Of a DNA stretch of 12,445 nt, positions 907 through 11,459 are shown one piece after another. Both the position numbers and the translations under genes were made by a program. Under the pieces are notes generated by a model that saw only the letters and a list, made by a program, of their open reading frames with translations, had not been told where the DNA came from and made no database searches. This DNA is from Bdellovibrionales bacterium CG10_big_fil_rev_8_21_14_0_10_45_34 (GTDB lineage Bacteria > Bdellovibrionota > Bdellovibrionia > Bdellovibrionales > 1-14-0-10-45-34), in the NCBI GenBank assembly GCA_002778785.1, contig PEZS01000002.1, forward strand, positions 193,625 to 206,069, read 5' to 3'. Position 1 is the stretch's first letter, and each line of letters opens with the position of its first letter.

Positions 907-2166
907 TTAAGGGTTCAAAACCTCGCCAAAGAGCATTTGCTCCACGAACTGGTGTTCAACTCTAGGGTTCTCTCCGCGACATTTCATTTGATTGAGCGGA
1001 ATCCAAACAAAGTCCGGGTTCGATTCGCCTCTCTTCCACTCACCTTTTAGAATATTGCCCTGATCATCGGTCCACAAGTAGTAGTCAAAATACGGTTCAA
1101 AACTGCGCGCCTCTCCAACTTTGTTATCGATATCACGATCGTATACATGAACCTTCAATCTAGCTCTCACGCTAACCCTGCCCTCATTATTCTTCTTGCT
1201 GATTTTAAACTCGTACCGAGAGATGACATAGTTATCGACCTTGTCGTCATTGTAACGATCATAGGCGATGGGCCGCCGGAGCACCTTGATAGAATAAATA
1301 AGCGCTTTATGAAAAAGCTCTGCTGAAATGTCGGTAAAGTCTGGCTGCCTAGAGTTGTTTCGACTTCCGTAAAACAACCAGTTCGCACAATAACTGGCTT
1401 CGTTGAGTAGGCCCTTTTGGTCCCAAACACTCAAACTTACTCCCAGCTCCGGCAGGTATACTGGCTTTTTAGGCTCGGGGTACAAGATACTTGCTGCTGC
1501 CCAGCCATTACAGTGCCCGCCCCATTCTACGTCGTCCAACGAGTGAATCTCTAATTCCCAGTCGACACTTTTGGGATTCACACCCGTTTTCAGATTAACC
1601 CACTGATCGTAAAGCGATAACGGAGGATTCGATCCGGCAGCAAGTGGCGCATCTTTATATGGATACCAGTAACCTCGCCAAGGGCGATTCTCTTTTGGCA
1701 ACTCTTCTTTGTATTTACCTGGTAGAACGAGATAGAGATTTTTACTTACGTTTTTTGTAGCAATCCGAAACGCATGTGCTGCAATCAAAACACTATCCCA
1801 GGGCAAAGTGATTTCTGAAATCTTCTGTGCAACTACTTTTTCACTTTGGCGCGGAAGTTGAGGCACCAACAGTTCTGCTGGTATTGCGTCAAATTGTAGT
1901 CTTTGGGAGTTCCATAGTCCTGCCTTAAAAATGTCTTCTTGAAGAGTGACAAACTGAATGTCTGTAGATTCCGCCATCTTCCAAAAAGTAAAGATGTCGT
2001 GTTTAAGCTGGCACCAAATCTCTTGTTCGTTCAAAACTTGATTGATACGCAAAAAATTACACGACCAAGATGGCTGATGCATCTCGAGAGTGTGACGTGA
2101 AAATTGAGTTGGCGTTTGAAACGAACTTGATACGACCAATCCAAGTGATACAAGCCAAGAATGCAT
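907..2166 (-). CDS. Exported transglutaminase-elicitor-like protein (GP42-type)
   Basis: This is probably a member of the transglutaminase-elicitor family, first known from the Phytophthora GP42 elicitor and also present in bacteria. Such enzymes form isopeptide bonds between Gln and Lys side chains using a Cys nucleophile. Visible support: WGGHCNGWAAASIL around residues 215-228 with the candidate nucleophile Cys219, and PEP directly after it. WRGYWYPYKD (163-172) lies upstream. LWTDDQGNILKGEW (364-377) followed by NPDFVWIPL (383-391) resembles a C-terminal family signature. There I recall HPDF as usual, so the Asn383 here may be a departure. The N-terminus (residues 1-16) is a short hydrophobic stretch compatible with a signal peptide, but weakly charged. 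The ribosome-binding site AAGGGG lies close to the ATG. It is divergent from the trehalase gene. Membership is from recalled motifs; activity and substrate are unknown. Confidence 0.62.
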   Translation of the reverse strand: MHSWLVSLGLVVSSSFQTPTQFSRHTLEMHQPSWSCNFLRINQVLNEQEIWCQLKHDIFTFWKMAESTDIQFVTLQEDIFKAGLWNSQRLQFDAIPAELLVPQLPRQSEKVVAQKISEITLPWDSVLIAAHAFRIATKNVSKNLYLVLPGKYKEELPKENRPWRGYWYPYKDAPLAAGSNPPLSLYDQWVNLKTGVNPKSVDWELEIHSLDDVEWGGHCNGWAAASILYPEPKKPVYLPELGVSLSVWDQKGLLNEASYCANWLFYGSRNNSRQPDFTDISAELFHKALIYSIKVLRRPIAYDRYNDDKVDNYVISRYEFKISKKNNEGRVSVRARLKVHVYDRDIDNKVGEARSFEPYFDYYLWTDDQGNILKGEWKRGESNPDFVWIPLNQMKCRGENPRVEHQFVEQMLFGEVLNP

Positions 2167-2370: not shown

Positions 2371-2427
2371 AACCAAATTCACAGCAGTTCTTTGAGTTGA
2401 GTTAGAAACAAATTAAGGAGATCTCTT

Positions 2428-4374
2428 TTGCCAACTTTGAACCATTTTCACATGTTAATTTTGTTATCGCTTTTTAGTTCACTATTCGGTTGCAGCACCG
2501 CTCCAGTGAAATTTCAAAATGCTGAAACCAACGCAATGACTTTTCAAGTTAGCTCTCTGCTGACTCAATTAAAATCTTTTGATACCGACCGAGACACCAA
2601 GATCACTGTACTCGACACGGTTTCTTTTCCGTCGATCCTTACAAACTCACAGGGTGAGACTTTACAGATTAACGGGATCTACCCACTTTCTATTGCTTGG
2701 CAAGAGACTGCTCTCGCCATAGAGGCAAAGCAAAGCGAAGTCACGCTTGATAAAAATAAGCTAACTCAAAAGCCACTAAAAAGAGCGCGTGACCTCATAT
2801 CGAAGTACTACTGGGATAACCTTACACGCCGGCTCGATAAAGAGGGCGTGCTTGCGATGATAGATTCTAAGACAAACAATGCGGGACTACATATCTATGT
2901 ACCAAACAGTGATTCCGTTCAGTTCAATTACTACAGAAAGCTTTTGCCTTATTGGCGAAGCCAAAATGTTCGCGTGTATCTTCACCGCCTGCCGCAAAAA
3001 ATAACAGCTGGGTTTGTGCGCAACCTTGACGGCCAGCATGGGATTCTCGCTCTTGGATATCGCCAAATGGGTAATGGAAGCATCGAACCTCTACCTTTTG
3101 TAGTACCGGGCGGTCGATTTAACGAAATGTATGGTTGGGACAGCTACTTCATTGCACTTGGACTCATTGAAAGCGGTAAAATCGAGCTGGCCAAGGCGAT
3201 GGTTGATAACTTCGTTTATCAAACCAATCACTACGGAAAGATCCTCAACGCCAATCGTAGTTACTATCTCACTCGCTCACAGCCACCCTTTACAACATCA
3301 ATGATCCGAGCGGTGTACGAAAAACTACCGAACAACCAAGAAAGTCGAGAGTGGGTTGCAGGAGCTATGAGAGCCGCCCTCAAGGAGTACAACAAGGTGT
3401 GGATGAGTCCGCCCCGGCGAGATGCTGTTACGGGGCTCAGTAGATATTATGCTGAGGGGCTGGGGCCATGCCCTGAGGTTGAACGAGGGCATTACAACGA
3501 AGCACTCGTTTCTTTTGTAGGAGATAAGCAATTCCCTCAAGCGAAAAATGTGCAAGAGCTGATAGATATTATCACGAACTCTTTTCAAAAAAATCCGAAG
3601 TTTAAAATTCAAAATAAACAATTAGCAGACTTCTTTCTTCATGATCGCACTATGCGAGAATCTGGACACGACACGACCTTTCGTTGGCACGACAAAGCTG
3701 CTGACTATGCGACAGTCGATTTGAACTCCCTACTCTTTAAGTACGAACAGGATTTTTTGGATCTCGTTCAAGAAGGAGTCCTATCTTCTGAGGAATTCGG
3801 GATTGCAGAATATTGGCGGAACGCGAGGAACTCGAGAAGATTAGCCATGTTTAAACATATGCATGAGCCAACAAGCGGACTCTTTTACGATTACAATCTT
3901 GCCGAAAAGAAGCGATCGGACTTTCTGTCGGCAACTGTTTTTTACACACTTTGGGCCGGTATTGTTGACCAAACTCAGGCCAGAAAGTTGACTCGATCTG
4001 CATTGTTGGAGCTTGAGCAACCCGGAGGACTTGCATCCACTTCTTTGTCTTCACTAAAAAAGTACGGTTACCCGCCAGGGCAACGTCAATGGGATTATCC
4101 AAATGGATGGGCTCCACATCAGATACTTGCCTGGAAGGGCCTTGAACAAATGGGTTTTCCTGGGGACGCAGGGCGCCTGAAGCAAACGTGGACAGAAATG
4201 CTTGCCAAGGGAATTAGTGATTACAACGGAACCATTCCGGAAAAATATGATGTAGCTAATCGATCCCACAAAGTATTTGCCGAGTACGGAAATGTGGGCA
4301 CCGACTTCAGCTATATTACCAAAGAAGGTTTTGGCTGGATGAACACTTCCATTCTTTTAGGTTTAAAAAAATAG
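2428..4374 (+). CDS. Trehalase, GH37 family, lipoprotein with EF-hand-like Ca2+ loop
   Basis: Trehalase hydrolyses alpha,alpha-trehalose to two glucose. Both family signatures are present: PGGRFNEMYGWDSY (227-240) and QWDYPNGWAP (554-563). The predicted acid/base pair is Asp415 (ESGHDTTFRW) and Glu605 (IPEKYDV). The start is TTG, chosen because AAGGAG sits 7 nt upstream; an ATG at 2452 would remove 8 residues. A lipobox LFGC puts the lipid anchor on Cys22, and Ser at +2 fits outer-membrane sorting, so the enzyme probably faces the periplasm or outside. Residues 52-63 (DTDRDTKITVLD) form an EF-hand-like loop, with the order and spacing of the Ca2+ loop of fungal neutral trehalases such as yeast Nth1. 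The late motifs ATVDLNSLLFKYE and YGNVGTDF-EGFGWMN also match my memory of that subgroup better than the Gly-rich GGGGEY of E. coli TreA/TreF. Length (648 aa) is complete. The 3' end overlaps the convergent gene by 12 bp. Confidence 0.93.
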   Translation: MPTLNHFHMLILLSLFSSLFGCSTAPVKFQNAETNAMTFQVSSLLTQLKSFDTDRDTKITVLDTVSFPSILTNSQGETLQINGIYPLSIAWQETALAIEAKQSEVTLDKNKLTQKPLKRARDLISKYYWDNLTRRLDKEGVLAMIDSKTNNAGLHIYVPNSDSVQFNYYRKLLPYWRSQNVRVYLHRLPQKITAGFVRNLDGQHGILALGYRQMGNGSIEPLPFVVPGGRFNEMYGWDSYFIALGLIESGKIELAKAMVDNFVYQTNHYGKILNANRSYYLTRSQPPFTTSMIRAVYEKLPNNQESREWVAGAMRAALKEYNKVWMSPPRRDAVTGLSRYYAEGLGPCPEVERGHYNEALVSFVGDKQFPQAKNVQELIDIITNSFQKNPKFKIQNKQLADFFLHDRTMRESGHDTTFRWHDKAADYATVDLNSLLFKYEQDFLDLVQEGVLSSEEFGIAEYWRNARNSRRLAMFKHMHEPTSGLFYDYNLAEKKRSDFLSATVFYTLWAGIVDQTQARKLTRSALLELEQPGGLASTSLSSLKKYGYPPGQRQWDYPNGWAPHQILAWKGLEQMGFPGDAGRLKQTWTEMLAKGISDYNGTIPEKYDVANRSHKVFAEYGNVGTDFSYITKEGFGWMNTSILLGLKK

Positions 4375-5142
4375 ACTCGCTACCTTTCTCAAAGCGTCTC
4401 TCGTCTTAGCATTAACTTTGGCAGTACGGTGCCTGATTTTAAGACGCGTATTTAGAGCCGACGGAAGCCAGCGAAAAACGTCGCAGATCTGCCGCCATAA
4501 GTAATCAAAAGTAGATTTCATAAGTCGCGAGGGGCGATCAACCTTTTCAGTTACGATATTGATCGTCTCGAGCTTTAGACCGCGAAGGAGACTCCAAATT
4601 AAAGTCTCTAGTGTGTAAGTGTATGTGGCTTTAGCTGGGAAGTGCGCGAAATCACTGAGGCGAAATACTCTAAAACCCGATACCAAGTCGATAGGTTTTG
4701 ATCGGAAGCACTTTGACAACAACCAAGATCCAAACGTCAGCAATGTTTTTTTGGTTCGGTTAAGGTTTTTGTCCAACAAGCGATCGCGATTGCCTATAAC
4801 AAGGCTTGCCTCGCTGGATTCAAGCTTTGCAAGAAGCCTTGGTATTTCAAATGCAGGATACTGCCCGTCGGCATCAAAGACAACAAGTGCGTCGAAGCCG
4901 TGATCTCTTGCAAACCTCAGACCTGTTTTAAAAACCTCTGCAAGACCTTTATTTTTATCATGCCGGATCACATGATCAATGCCCATACTCTTTGCAATGG
5001 TTGCTGAACCATCCGTAGAGCCGTCGTCTATAAGCAATAAAAACGGTGCATTGTCGTGGCTCGAAAAAGATTGTAGCGCCTCTATGGTCTTTGAAAGTGT
5101 TTCTGCCTCGTTGAAGCAGGGAATCATTATGCAGATTTGCAT
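4363..5142 (-). CDS. Family 2 glycosyltransferase, polyprenyl-phosphate sugar transferase type
   Basis: This is a GT-A fold transferase that moves a sugar from a nucleotide donor, probably in envelope polysaccharide or lipid-linked sugar synthesis. The sequence opens at once with IMIPCFNEAETL (5-16). It then has the nucleotide-binding DDGSTDGS (39-46), the metal-binding DADGQYP (90-96, DxD) and SGFRVFR (155-161). This is the order seen in dolichyl/undecaprenyl-phosphate mannosyl- or glucosyltransferases. At 259 aa it is the catalytic domain only; I see no C-terminal membrane segments, so it is cytosolic or peripheral through its basic C-terminal part. No strong ribosome-binding site precedes the ATG; Met6 is an alternative start. 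The 222-bp gap to the next upstream gene on this strand argues for its own promoter. Acceptor and sugar are unknown. Confidence 0.88.
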   Translation of the reverse strand: MQICIMIPCFNEAETLSKTIEALQSFSSHDNAPFLLLIDDGSTDGSATIAKSMGIDHVIRHDKNKGLAEVFKTGLRFARDHGFDALVVFDADGQYPAFEIPRLLAKLESSEASLVIGNRDRLLDKNLNRTKKTLLTFGSWLLSKCFRSKPIDLVSGFRVFRLSDFAHFPAKATYTYTLETLIWSLLRGLKLETINIVTEKVDRPSRLMKSTFDYLWRQICDVFRWLPSALNTRLKIRHRTAKVNAKTRDALRKVASLFF

Positions 5143-8021: not shown

Positions 8022-8891
8022 TTAAGAGTAATTTGGGGTAGCGTCCGCCGTCGAATCGGTGTTGGTATTCTCAAAATCGCTTTTGCTCACGTTACCTTTA
8101 CCTAATCTTTCCTTCATCACCGTGTCGGGTAGCTGCTCTTGCCGAACCTTTTTGATCTCCCACAACTTGGCGTACTTGAGAAACATAGAATAGCCGGCAC
8201 TTACAGAGATGATAAATCCCGCTAACCCATCTAAAAAACCGAGCTTCAATATATAAGTTTCAACGAACTTCGAAATAGGCTTAGTCACCATTCGAAACAA
8301 AGAAGCACTTCTGCTCGCACGTGCCAAATCTCTCGCACCAAGAGAAGAGTAGAGATTGTTCATAGCAACCTGATGAGAGATATCTTTAAATACCCAGTGT
8401 TCGATTGGGTTTGCGAAACGTGCAACTTGCTTACTCGTTACCCTCTCGTGCACTTCACCGCCTGCCCACTCCGCGTTTTTGCGATCGAAAAATCGAAGTT
8501 GATAATCTGGATACCAACCACCATGCCGTATCCACTTACCCAAATAGTGCGATATCCGCGGCGCCTCAAATCCGTCAGCGTAAGGTTCGCCATCTTCGAG
8601 CATTCTTTGGATTTCTTTACTTAGCCCCTCTGAAAGGGCTTCGTCGGCATCGAGAGACAGTATCCAGTCATTGCTTGCCAGCTCAACGGCGCGTTGCTTT
8701 TGGGCGCGATACCCTCTAAAAGCCTCCACATATAACTTGGCGCCCAGCTTTTTGCTGAGCTCACAAGTGTTGTCGCGACTTCCGCTATCTAAAACAACGA
8801 TCTCATCGACCCACTTCGCACTTCGTAGGCACCGCTCAATATTATCGGCTTCGTTGAAAGTGATTACAACCAGTGAAACTTTTGTCTTCAT
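8022..8891 (-). CDS. LPS-core type glycosyltransferase, WaaE/KdtX-like (GT2)
   Basis: This resembles the WaaE/KdtX group, family 2 transferases that add a glucose to the inner heptose of the LPS core on the cytoplasmic face. Motifs in order: VSLVVITFNEADNIERCL (5-22), the LDSGSRDNT nucleotide site (34-42), FRGYRAQKQRAVELASNDWILSLDADE ending at 84 (DAD metal site 81-83), GGWYPDYQLRFF (124-135) and the VHER motif (147-150). The C-terminal hydrophobic region about 215-245 (FLDGLAGF, then YSMFLKYAKLWEIKK) is typical of this group and probably contacts the membrane. The last 20 or so residues are Asn/Thr/Asp-rich, variable and probably disordered. The gap of 142 bp to rmuC holds a possible small ORF. 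The exact sugar and acceptor cannot be read from sequence. The ribosome-binding site is weak. Confidence 0.9.
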   Translation of the reverse strand: MKTKVSLVVITFNEADNIERCLRSAKWVDEIVVLDSGSRDNTCELSKKLGAKLYVEAFRGYRAQKQRAVELASNDWILSLDADEALSEGLSKEIQRMLEDGEPYADGFEAPRISHYLGKWIRHGGWYPDYQLRFFDRKNAEWAGGEVHERVTSKQVARFANPIEHWVFKDISHQVAMNNLYSSLGARDLARASRSASLFRMVTKPISKFVETYILKLGFLDGLAGFIISVSAGYSMFLKYAKLWEIKKVRQEQLPDTVMKERLGKGNVSKSDFENTNTDSTADATPNYS

Positions 8892-9145
8892 TTGCGAAAA
8901 CTTAACCCATACGAGGCTTGTTTGTCGTCGATTTTTTACATCAAAGTGGGCTCTAAAAGTTCAGCCTGTATGGCCCTCTTACCCGATTTGAGCCTTTCAA
9001 AAGCTGTGCATGTCCCAATAAACCCCGAAGTATGACATAGCTCTGCCACTGACCAGCTATAAAAATTTATCGCCGGGTTTTGTAGAGGTTCGAGTTGTCA
9101 AAACGGATTATCAGATCTAGGCTTGCCCATGCAAGGAGATCAATC

Positions 9146-9790
9146 ATGTCTTTCGCAATCAAAACTCGATGTGTTTTTGGCCGACTAACGGCTGTCTTAG
9201 TTACTAGTTTCTTTTCGGTAACATCTTTAGGTTATTTTAGCACCATGGATACGGGTGAAGTCTTACCTTCTAACAACTACCGCATACAACTTGAGCCTCA
9301 GCTGATTACAACTGCTCCCAGCGGATTAAACCTCAATGCCAGGTTCGATGCAGGTGTTAATGAAAGTTCGAACGTGCGAGCTATCCTAGGATTTGGGCGC
9401 ACGGATTTTCATTGGGGTCTTATGTACAAGTGGGTTCCTATTCCAGATTACGAAGGGCAACCTGCACTTGGAATAATGGGTGGATTTGAATGGGCACGGG
9501 ACGACGATAAATCAGTTCTTACGGCCCGAATACATCCAATTATTAGTAAAGAGTTTGGAACCGATATCGGAAAACTAACTCCCTACGCGTCTGTTCCTAT
9601 CGGACTTTCCGGCGGAGACGGCTCATCAAAAACGCCCATCCAACTTGCACTCGGAACAGGGTGGAAGCCTACAGATTTAAACAAAGTCTCTTTCTTAGCG
9701 GAAGCTGGGCTTGAGCTCAATGATTCCTTTTCTTACGTATCCGTTGCGGCACAAATTGCCTTCGACGAAGAAGGCATCGCCTTCGAATAA
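9146..9790 (+). CDS. Probable small outer-membrane beta-barrel protein
   Basis: I know no named family. The frame is open from a TTG at 9095, but the ATG at 9146 is preferred because AAGGAG lies 7 nt upstream. This gives 214 residues. Residues 1-29 look like a Sec signal peptide (basic n-region, core LTAVLVTSFFSVTSLG). The rest alternates polar and hydrophobic residues in short stretches divided by Gly/Asp/Asn turns, as in the strands NYRIQLEPQLITT, NVRAILGFG, FHWGLMYKWVPI, LGIMGGFEW, PIQLALGTGW, VSFLAEAGLEL and YVSVAAQIAF. This fits an 8-10 stranded barrel. It ends in FE, close to the usual terminal aromatic. A TATAAA at 9058-9063 could be its -10 box. It is divergent from the glycosyltransferase gene and is followed by the lipoprotein after 209 bp. 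Export is likely; barrel is an inference; function is unknown. Confidence 0.75.
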   Translation: MSFAIKTRCVFGRLTAVLVTSFFSVTSLGYFSTMDTGEVLPSNNYRIQLEPQLITTAPSGLNLNARFDAGVNESSNVRAILGFGRTDFHWGLMYKWVPIPDYEGQPALGIMGGFEWARDDDKSVLTARIHPIISKEFGTDIGKLTPYASVPIGLSGGDGSSKTPIQLALGTGWKPTDLNKVSFLAEAGLELNDSFSYVSVAAQIAFDEEGIAFE

Positions 9791-9999: not shown

Positions 10000-10476
10000 A
10001 TGCGAACAAGCATTGCACTGAGAGGAAGTCTATTTGTCATTTCAATGACAACGATTCTAGTTAATTGTTCCGGCAGCGGAGGTGTTGGCACCACAGCGTC
10101 AAGCACACTATCAAGTTTTGCCAGCACTATGGCCGAAGATATTGTTGTGGCATCGCCAACAGCAAGTACGTCTTCGACGCTTGCATTCACCTTTTTAGAA
10201 AACGCTGCAGATACCGGAGCCTTCGCCGCACCTAGTGCAACTGATACCGCAGCTACAAAAAAAACGTCGCTCGCAACACTTCTTGCCGCAACAGCACCTG
10301 CTACTTGCGGCATTTCGATAACTTTGTCGGCGCGGCAACACGAGCAAATTGTTACGGGCCTAGTGTCAACTATACGAACCATGAGATGGGCAATGGCAGC
10401 GGCAACTGGCCTGGCGGCGATCTTGGTATTTGGGAAGAGTCTGTTGACGGCGAAGCCTGTGCTTCTGCGCAGTTAA
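10000..10476 (+). CDS. Lipoprotein, N-terminal part before a -1 frameshift
   Basis: The first about 105 codons are the true N-terminus of a lipoprotein. AGGGGAG lies 7 nt before the ATG. A basic n-region (MRTSIALR) and hydrophobic core lead to the lipobox LVNC, with Cys23 as the lipid-bearing residue. After it comes a Ser/Thr/Ala/Gly-rich tether. Beyond about 10305-10320 the reading becomes a shadow frame (basic, Arg/Met-rich) and stops at 10474-10476, while the protein-like reading moves to the -1 frame. The switch must lie after the TGA of the other frame at 10242-10244. Inside that window is an A8 run (10257-10264) placed as ACA AAA AAA, a perfect slippery heptamer for -1 slippage. A simple 1-nt deletion near 10305-10320, or a sequencing error, are alternatives. 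The surface location is inferred from the lipobox. Confidence 0.7.
   Translation: MRTSIALRGSLFVISMTTILVNCSGSGGVGTTASSTLSSFASTMAEDIVVASPTASTSSTLAFTFLENAADTGAFAAPSATDTAATKKTSLATLLAATAPATCGISITLSARQHEQIVTGLVSTIRTMRWAMAAATGLAAILVFGKSLLTAKPVLLRS
10257..10264 (+). other. A8 homopolymer, candidate slippage site
   Basis: Eight adenines read as (AC)A AAA AAA in the lipoprotein frame. A -1 slip here would pass translation straight into the long downstream frame (to 11457), which is open from 10245. I see no obvious strong stem-loop 5-10 nt downstream. Transcriptional slippage or phase variation by tract length is as likely as ribosomal frameshifting, and the tract may also be incidental. Confidence 0.4.
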
Positions 10477-11459
10477 CAGCTCAAATGCGAGGAGTAATCT
10501 CTTACATCGACATGGCCCAGTTCATTGGTGCCGGAATGAGCTGCACAGCCAACAAAAATAGTCTAACTCTTCCGGGAGTTGGCGAAAGCTTGGATCTTGC
10601 AAGCGCTTTAGCAGGGTTAGTTACAATTGATTCTACGGCTGTTACAATTACAACTGCAACCTTAGCACGCGCTGCAAATGATTCTTCTGGGAATCCCGTA
10701 TACATATCTACGCTTGAGGGAACTGCCGGATCAAACTCTTACTTTATTAGAATCAAACACGTGCCCACTGCGGCAGATGATTCTACGAACAAAGGGAAGA
10801 TCTCTGTAAAGATCACAACAGGCTCTGCTACAGACGGGGTTTCACTCGACTACGAAAAGACATCCGCAACAGCCGCTCGAATGTTGTTGAGAAAAATTAA
10901 TTTCTCAAGCACTGGCCAAGATCCGTTTGCATCTGCAACCGACTTTACAGTCGATTATGCGAAGTCTTGGAACAATAATGCCGACCACTTCCTCGCTGAA
11001 ATCAATCCAGCCGACTACACCGGAAAGTATTCCTACGCTTGGCAAGCAGGCACTGGCGACTCTCATACACGCGTATTTAACGCCACCGTTGCGACAGCAT
11101 CTGGCGCAACAACCGGAACTGCTTTTTTTGGATTTGGTCCAACAGTACAAACTGGGGCTGGAGCGATTTCTGGAATGATCTGTGCCTGGACGGGGCCAGA
11201 CTCAAACCACACTCCTGTTAGTAAAGTACAAAGGCAAGACATAGTACTTACCGCCGGCAAGTTTGCAGTTTCTGGAACTTCAAAGACCGTTTTTGATCCT
11301 GTAGCAGACTGTGAAGCAGCTGGGGCCATGAGTATGAACTGGAATAGTGGGGCGAGCACTCGCGCGGCAAGCTCTACTACTGAAAATCTAGAACTTTTAA
11401 CAGCTGTCTCCGCTGTATTCGGAAGCCAACCGACAGCTCCCGCCAACGTCGATCTGTAA
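10305..11459 (+). CDS. Lipoprotein, main body after the frameshift
   Basis: This frame has no plausible start of its own; the first ATG is well inside, with no ribosome-binding site. It reads as the continuation of the lipoprotein begun at 10000. Its clear protein-like part begins FDNFVGAATRANCYGP, then NYTNHEMGNGSGNWPGGDLGIWEE and EACASAQLTAQMRGV, a style I associate with lipoproteins of Bdellovibrio-like bacteria (memory, not a search). The body is Ala/Thr/Ser/Gly-rich with many beta-type stretches. Cysteines recur at RANC, EAC, MSC, MIC and ADC. No catalytic motif is recognised; it is likely a surface or periplasm-facing structural or binding protein. The joined product would be about 480 residues. 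The frame stays open for 1.1 kb with coherent composition, so any mutation is recent, or the shift is real recoding, or it is an assembly error. A hairpin terminator follows 22 bp after the stop. Confidence 0.72.
   Translation: MRHFDNFVGAATRANCYGPSVNYTNHEMGNGSGNWPGGDLGIWEESVDGEACASAQLTAQMRGVISYIDMAQFIGAGMSCTANKNSLTLPGVGESLDLASALAGLVTIDSTAVTITTATLARAANDSSGNPVYISTLEGTAGSNSYFIRIKHVPTAADDSTNKGKISVKITTGSATDGVSLDYEKTSATAARMLLRKINFSSTGQDPFASATDFTVDYAKSWNNNADHFLAEINPADYTGKYSYAWQAGTGDSHTRVFNATVATASGATTGTAFFGFGPTVQTGAGAISGMICAWTGPDSNHTPVSKVQRQDIVLTAGKFAVSGTSKTVFDPVADCEAAGAMSMNWNSGASTRAASSTTENLELLTAVSAVFGSQPTAPANVDL

Follow-up and report, generated by a model that had tools for sequence, protein, structure and literature searches.

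The closest described relative of the trehalase reported here is the neutral trehalase Nth1 of yeast (PDB 5n6n, 5jta, 5nis, 5m4a), in which we take D114, D116, N118, Q120 and D125 to be the Ca2+ ligands, Q120 by way of its main chain, and D478 and E674 to be the catalytic residues. In E. coli, the periplasmic TreA recovers trehalose outside the cell, while TreF is cytosolic. Nth1 carries a tail of roughly 100 residues that bears Ser60 and Ser83, and a 2024 review presents Ca2+ binding, together with 14-3-3, as part of a mechanism peculiar to yeast Nth1, with prokaryotic trehalases as the contrast (PMC10847541). We analyzed a gene from Bdellovibrionales bacterium CG10_big_fil_rev_8_21_14_0_10_45_34 (assembly GCA_002778785.1), located in a stretch of 12,445 nucleotides of contig PEZS01000002.1 (positions 193,625 to 206,069), hereafter the window. 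Its product, the window protein, is a GH37 trehalase with the loop of Nth1 and without the 14-3-3 segment, and we consider it likely that it is an exported enzyme whose Ca2+ domain gives static support to the active-site lid.

The family assignment is firm. PF01204 (Trehalase) matches residues 104-647 with 400 bits against a cut-off of 21 (E 2.3e-119), and the catalytic Asp and Glu align with those of Nth1. The top matches among PDB sequences were the Nth1 entries, with E 1e-139 for the three longest constructs, covering window residues 41-647 in alignments that start at 41 or 44; the periplasmic trehalases of E. coli type (TreA) came next, at E about 1e-40 and with an alignment beginning only at residue 221. 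The NCBIfam models for TreA/TreF gave 178.7, 168.8 and 161.6 bits, far below their cut-offs of 941, 560 and 512. The window protein shares the barrel and the catalytic residues with TreA and TreF, and with TreA possibly also the periplasmic location, but identity is about 30% and limited to the catalytic part, and the E. coli enzymes have no Ca2+ domain and a Gly-rich lid. By its likeness to TreA and Nth1, HKVFAEYGNVGTDF is the presumptive active-site lid; in the alignment it occupies the place of the Gly-rich GGGGEY loop of TreA/TreF, and lid and catalytic residues are retained. The late motifs that had led the original prediction to the neutral-trehalase branch, namely ATVDLNSLLFKYE, GNVGTDF and EGFGWMN, are all present, and this placement agrees with both the top match and the trees described below.

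The original prediction had also likened residues 52-63 to the Ca2+ loop of Nth1. Indeed, DTDRDTKITVLD has Asp at positions 1, 3, 5 and 12, Ile at 8 and Thr at 9, and aligns without gaps and in register with D114-D125 of Nth1 (DTDKNYQITIED), D114, D116, N118, Q120 and D125 corresponding to window D52, D54, D56, K58 and D63; position 5 is thus Asp in the window protein and Asn in Nth1. When the window protein was shuffled, the loop pattern arose anywhere in it in 0.1% of shuffles. The match to Nth1, with a whole-protein E of 1e-139 and the loop in register, lies well outside chance. We compared 94 distinct, N-terminally complete bacterial relatives, the window protein included, and found the loop in all of them, with D1, D5, I8 and D12 invariant, D3 and T9 kept in 99%, and positions 4, 6 and 11 variable. 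Near-invariant Asp ligands next to freely varying positions are the signature of a metal site in use. In the full collection, 94 of 97 distinct proteins carry the loop; the exceptions are two N-terminally truncated sequences (L087 and L114; L numbers are our own labels) and one from a loop-less sister clade (L123).

Scanning about 85,000 species genomes turned up at least 573 confirmed relatives, and the best 80 of these fall in Bacteroidota (chiefly Flavobacteriaceae), Ignavibacteriota, Calditrichota, Elusimicrobiota, Riflebacteria, Neomarinimicrobiota, Myxococcota, Deferribacterota, Verrucomicrobiota and Bdellovibrionota. Judging from these comparisons, the window gene belongs to a large clade of bacterial genes. 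Within sampled phyla the neutral-type gene is sporadic: it was present in 16 of 296 Bacteroidota genomes, in about 10 of 368 Bdellovibrionota genomes and in 1 of 194 Verrucomicrobiota genomes, that one having served as centre. Further neutral-type genes occur in records of Bacteriovoracaceae, Bdellovibrionales and Oligoflexia (L017 = L037, L002 = L072, L003 = L093, L021 = L070, L023 = L089), and in the genome of the window itself (3.06 Mb, 16 contigs) the gene occurs once. The open-licence literature yielded no description of bacterial Ca2+-loop trehalases. Carriage by phages or plasmids was rejected, as no relatives were found in viral contigs, and the matches on plasmids were partial and TreF-like and stayed below 80% coverage of the window protein.

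At its N-terminus the protein departs from Nth1. A hydrophobic leader ends in a lipobox with Cys (SLFGC, residues 18-22), where Nth1 is cytosolic and leaderless. Ahead of the loop there are only 51 residues. The signal peptide accounts for about 22 of them, and the 29 between Cys22 and the loop leave no room for a tail of the length found in Nth1; accordingly, there is no N-terminal PKA/CDK/14-3-3 segment. Such leaders recur among the 94 loop-bearing relatives, some of which look like lipoproteins, while others have a Sec signal or no leader at all. A rough hydrophobicity rule assigned no leader to 48 of them, a leader to 31 and a leader plus lipobox to 15; by eye, about 19 show a lipobox, with clear cases in L003 (TVGC) and L023 (ISGC). 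The exported or lipoprotein form is therefore not rare, and the expectation that a version of this kind would be unusual did not hold, given these counts and the abundance of the loop type itself. An enzyme that is exported and 14-3-3-free and has the Ca2+ loop amounts to a variant of a described kind of trehalase. FsTreA of Fusarium sacchari resembles it as an exported GH37 enzyme and kin of the neutral trehalases, but has no Ca2+ domain and is Ca2+-independent (PMC13274424).

We also examined an AlphaFold2 model built from 34 window and locus sequences. Its mean predicted local distance difference test score (pLDDT) is 88.6, with low confidence at residues 1-32 (leader) and 618-627 (lid tip). 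Block means of 76-96 across residues 31-112 show a confidently folded Ca2+ domain, and the loop lies in this ordered region. With VIA-align, model residues 32-648 superposed on residues 92-719 of 5n6n chain C, the 14-3-3-bound Nth1, over 584 residues (root-mean-square deviation 2.1 A, Z 45), and Foldseek was concordant. This superposition spans both domains, whereas the alignments of the remaining Nth1 entries begin at about residue 114 and cover the catalytic domain alone. The window protein and Nth1 have in common the two-domain layout, the positions of the Ca2+ ligands, the catalytic D/E pair and the lid motif.

In the account that we consider likely, the enzyme would split trehalose into two glucose molecules, either in the periplasm or on the cell surface. 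Most simply, Ca2+, plentiful outside the cytoplasm, would permanently fill the DTDRDTKITVLD loop and by itself hold the domain against the catalytic barrel and the flexible lid, in the arrangement that yeast Nth1 attains only on 14-3-3 binding. Owing to such permanent occupancy the enzyme would be constitutively assembled, Ca2+-stabilised and always on, with no control by phosphorylation or 14-3-3. The Ca2+ domain would be of bacterial origin and already present in the ancestor of the clade, with the 14-3-3 switch of fungi apparently added later. On contig C13 of the same genome (L163), a gene for OtsA (the trehalose-6-phosphate synthase, TPS, here with an N-terminal hydrophobic extension) overlaps a gene for an OtsB-like phosphatase, and the organism is probably able to make trehalose; with this pair in the genome, the trehalase could recover trehalose that has leaked or is met outside.

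The strong similarity to Nth1, and the presence of neutral-type genes in so few Bdellovibrionota, would fit a different history, namely that a cytosolic neutral trehalase moved from a fungus into the bacterium and then gained a leader; the original prediction had allowed for a cross-kingdom transfer. We inferred three trees with IQ-TREE under a mixture model (64, 62 and 48 rows), the first containing the very long rows L005 and L009, which were absent from the later two. TreA/TreF formed a single clade with 100% support. The loop-bearing proteins, including Nth1 and the window gene, formed a clade apart from it (97/100, 99/100 and 100/99 in the three trees), so that the window protein did not fall deep among TreA/TreF. 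Neither this placement nor a lack of the loop in homologues, two outcomes that would have refuted the original prediction, was observed. Sister to the loop clade was a loop-less clade (L123, L152, L153, L156, L173, L179). This loop-less group (L123, L152-L156, L171-L183) has members from one Bacteroidota class and from Verrucomicrobiota, several of them with signal peptides, and may parallel the Ca2+-independent secreted FsTreA. Nth1 itself was nested within the loop clade, in a subclade of Bacteroidota, Ignavibacteriota and Calditrichota (100/100, 100/99 and 100/99) that excludes the window gene, and BLAST found it closest to L168, L058 and L142 (50-51% identity). Its tree neighbours are mostly leaderless (L042, L142, L166, L167, L168), L046/L170 being of lipoprotein form. 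The window gene was placed either deep in the loop clade or with other Bdellovibrionota (100/97 in the 48-row tree), never near Nth1, and its product is nearer to bacterial sequences (47-49% identity to L017) than to Nth1. In the approximately unbiased (AU) test, keeping all bacterial members together without Nth1 was rejected with 62 rows (p=0.012) and, marginally, with 48 rows (p=0.048). As Nth1 is nested among bacteria and far from the window gene, a fungal origin of the latter is very improbable and was rejected on tree placement. If there was a transfer, it more likely went from bacteria to fungi, a direction read from trees that contain long branches and have Nth1 (its sequence taken from PDB) as their single fungal neutral trehalase.

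Two further alternatives accept a bacterial gene and dispute the role of Ca2+. The loop could be a relic, with the fold retained and Ca2+ unbound or irrelevant in what would be an ordinary TreA-like periplasmic trehalase; TreA functions although it has no domain of this kind, the loop clade has a sister clade without the loop, and the secreted fungal FsTreA dispenses with both domain and Ca2+ (PMC13274424). However, a relic is hard to reconcile with Asp ligands that show almost no variation across 94 proteins in which positions 4, 6 and 11 vary freely, and we regard this explanation as unlikely. Somewhat less likely still is a reversible switch, by which the enzyme would sense external Ca2+ (e.g. 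of prey or sea water) and be off at low Ca2+. External Ca2+ is usually far above the affinities of EF loops, and many loop-bearing relatives are leaderless and presumably cytosolic, which leaves no sensing setting common to the clade.

Several observations weigh against an exported enzyme with a structural Ca2+ domain and have to be set beside it. The window protein gave no match up to E 10 with the Pfam model of the Ca2+-binding domain, PF07492 (Trehalase_Ca-bi); five relatives score 36-48 bits against its cut-off of 25, so that databases implicitly hold knowledge of the bacterial loop. Bacterial neutral-type trehalases such as those of Winogradskyella, Melioribacter and Salinimicrobium (L056, L039, L051) share the clade of the window protein, the PF07492-like loop and the lid motif, but many are leaderless, the branch of the window gene is long (1.2-1.4), and the window protein is without the short C-terminal tail that its relatives have. 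Nth1 structures were probably among the training data of AlphaFold, and the 14-3-3-bound-like arrangement may be remembered from them, so the domain placement counts as support rather than proof. As to the lipobox named in the original prediction, LFGC and the export signal stood up, but the n-region MPTLNHFHMLILL offers only His, with no Lys/Arg before the hydrophobic core from either the TTG start (2428) or a possible alternative ATG (2452). Lipidation at LFGC is plausible from the motif, an ordinary Sec signal or anchor being the alternative.

Features of the trehalase gene, in window coordinates
Feature	Position	Strand	Basis
Shine-Dalgarno-like AAGGAG, 7 nt ahead of TTG start	2415..2420	+	direct sequence reading
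GH37 trehalase, neutral (Ca2+-loop) branch, 648 aa	2428..4374	+	Pfam, PDB match, trees
Signal peptide; LFGC as possible lipobox, Cys22 (2491-2493) as candidate lipidation site	2428..2493	+	rule of thumb
N-terminal Ca2+-binding-domain equivalent, about residues 34-112	2527..2763	+	pLDDT; superposition on Nth1 5n6n
EF-hand-like loop DTDRDTKITVLD, residues 52-63	2581..2616	+	aligned to Nth1 D114-D125; kept in 94/94 relatives
GH37 (alpha/alpha)6 catalytic domain, residues 113-648	2764..4371	+	Pfam, structure comparison
Asp415, counterpart of Nth1 Asp478	3670..3672	+	alignment; invariant among relatives
Glu605, counterpart of Nth1 Glu674	4240..4242	+	alignment; invariant among relatives
Putative active-site lid loop HKVFAEYGNVGTDF	4267..4308	+	alignment; low pLDDT at residues 618-627

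Around the trehalase gene, the divergent neighbour (907-2166, minus strand) encodes 419 residues with a weak match to the transglutaminase elicitor family PF16683 (30.2 bits against a cut-off of 25), which we take to be named after an oomycete protein; this is possibly another cross-kingdom family adjoining the trehalase. A gene for a GT2 glycosyltransferase (4363-5142, minus strand) has a tail-to-tail overlap of 12 bp with the trehalase gene, and a second GT2 gene lies at 8022-8891 (minus strand). Two open reading frames on the plus strand are without Pfam match, one of 231 residues (9095-9790) with an outer-membrane-type appearance by eye and one of 384 residues (10305-11459) rich in Ala, Thr and Ser. 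A conserved gene neighbourhood was rejected, since none of the eight neighbouring window genes had a match in the relatives' loci, many of which have short flanks, and a scan for promoters and terminators gave nothing useful.

For the family, the Ca2+ loop is thus invariant across a broad bacterial clade that is without the 14-3-3 tail and encloses Nth1, in contrast to the view of Ca2+ binding as a yeast speciality (PMC10847541). As the loop is standard in the bacterial branch around Nth1, the Ca2+ site probably predates the regulation that yeast has built on it. We lean, by a modest measure, towards a joint history in which fungal neutral trehalase derives from a bacterial Ca2+-loop trehalase, of mostly leaderless Bacteroidota/Ignavibacteriota/Calditrichota kin; the Ca2+ module would be an ancient bacterial structural site to which fungi added a phosphorylatable 14-3-3 tail, and exported bacterial enzymes like that of the window would represent the ancestral 14-3-3-free state. 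On this basis it can be asked clearly whether the Ca2+ site is structural and ancient or belongs to a signalling switch, and the bacterial proteins provide naturally 14-3-3-free enzymes for studying how a Ca2+ domain controls the active-site lid.
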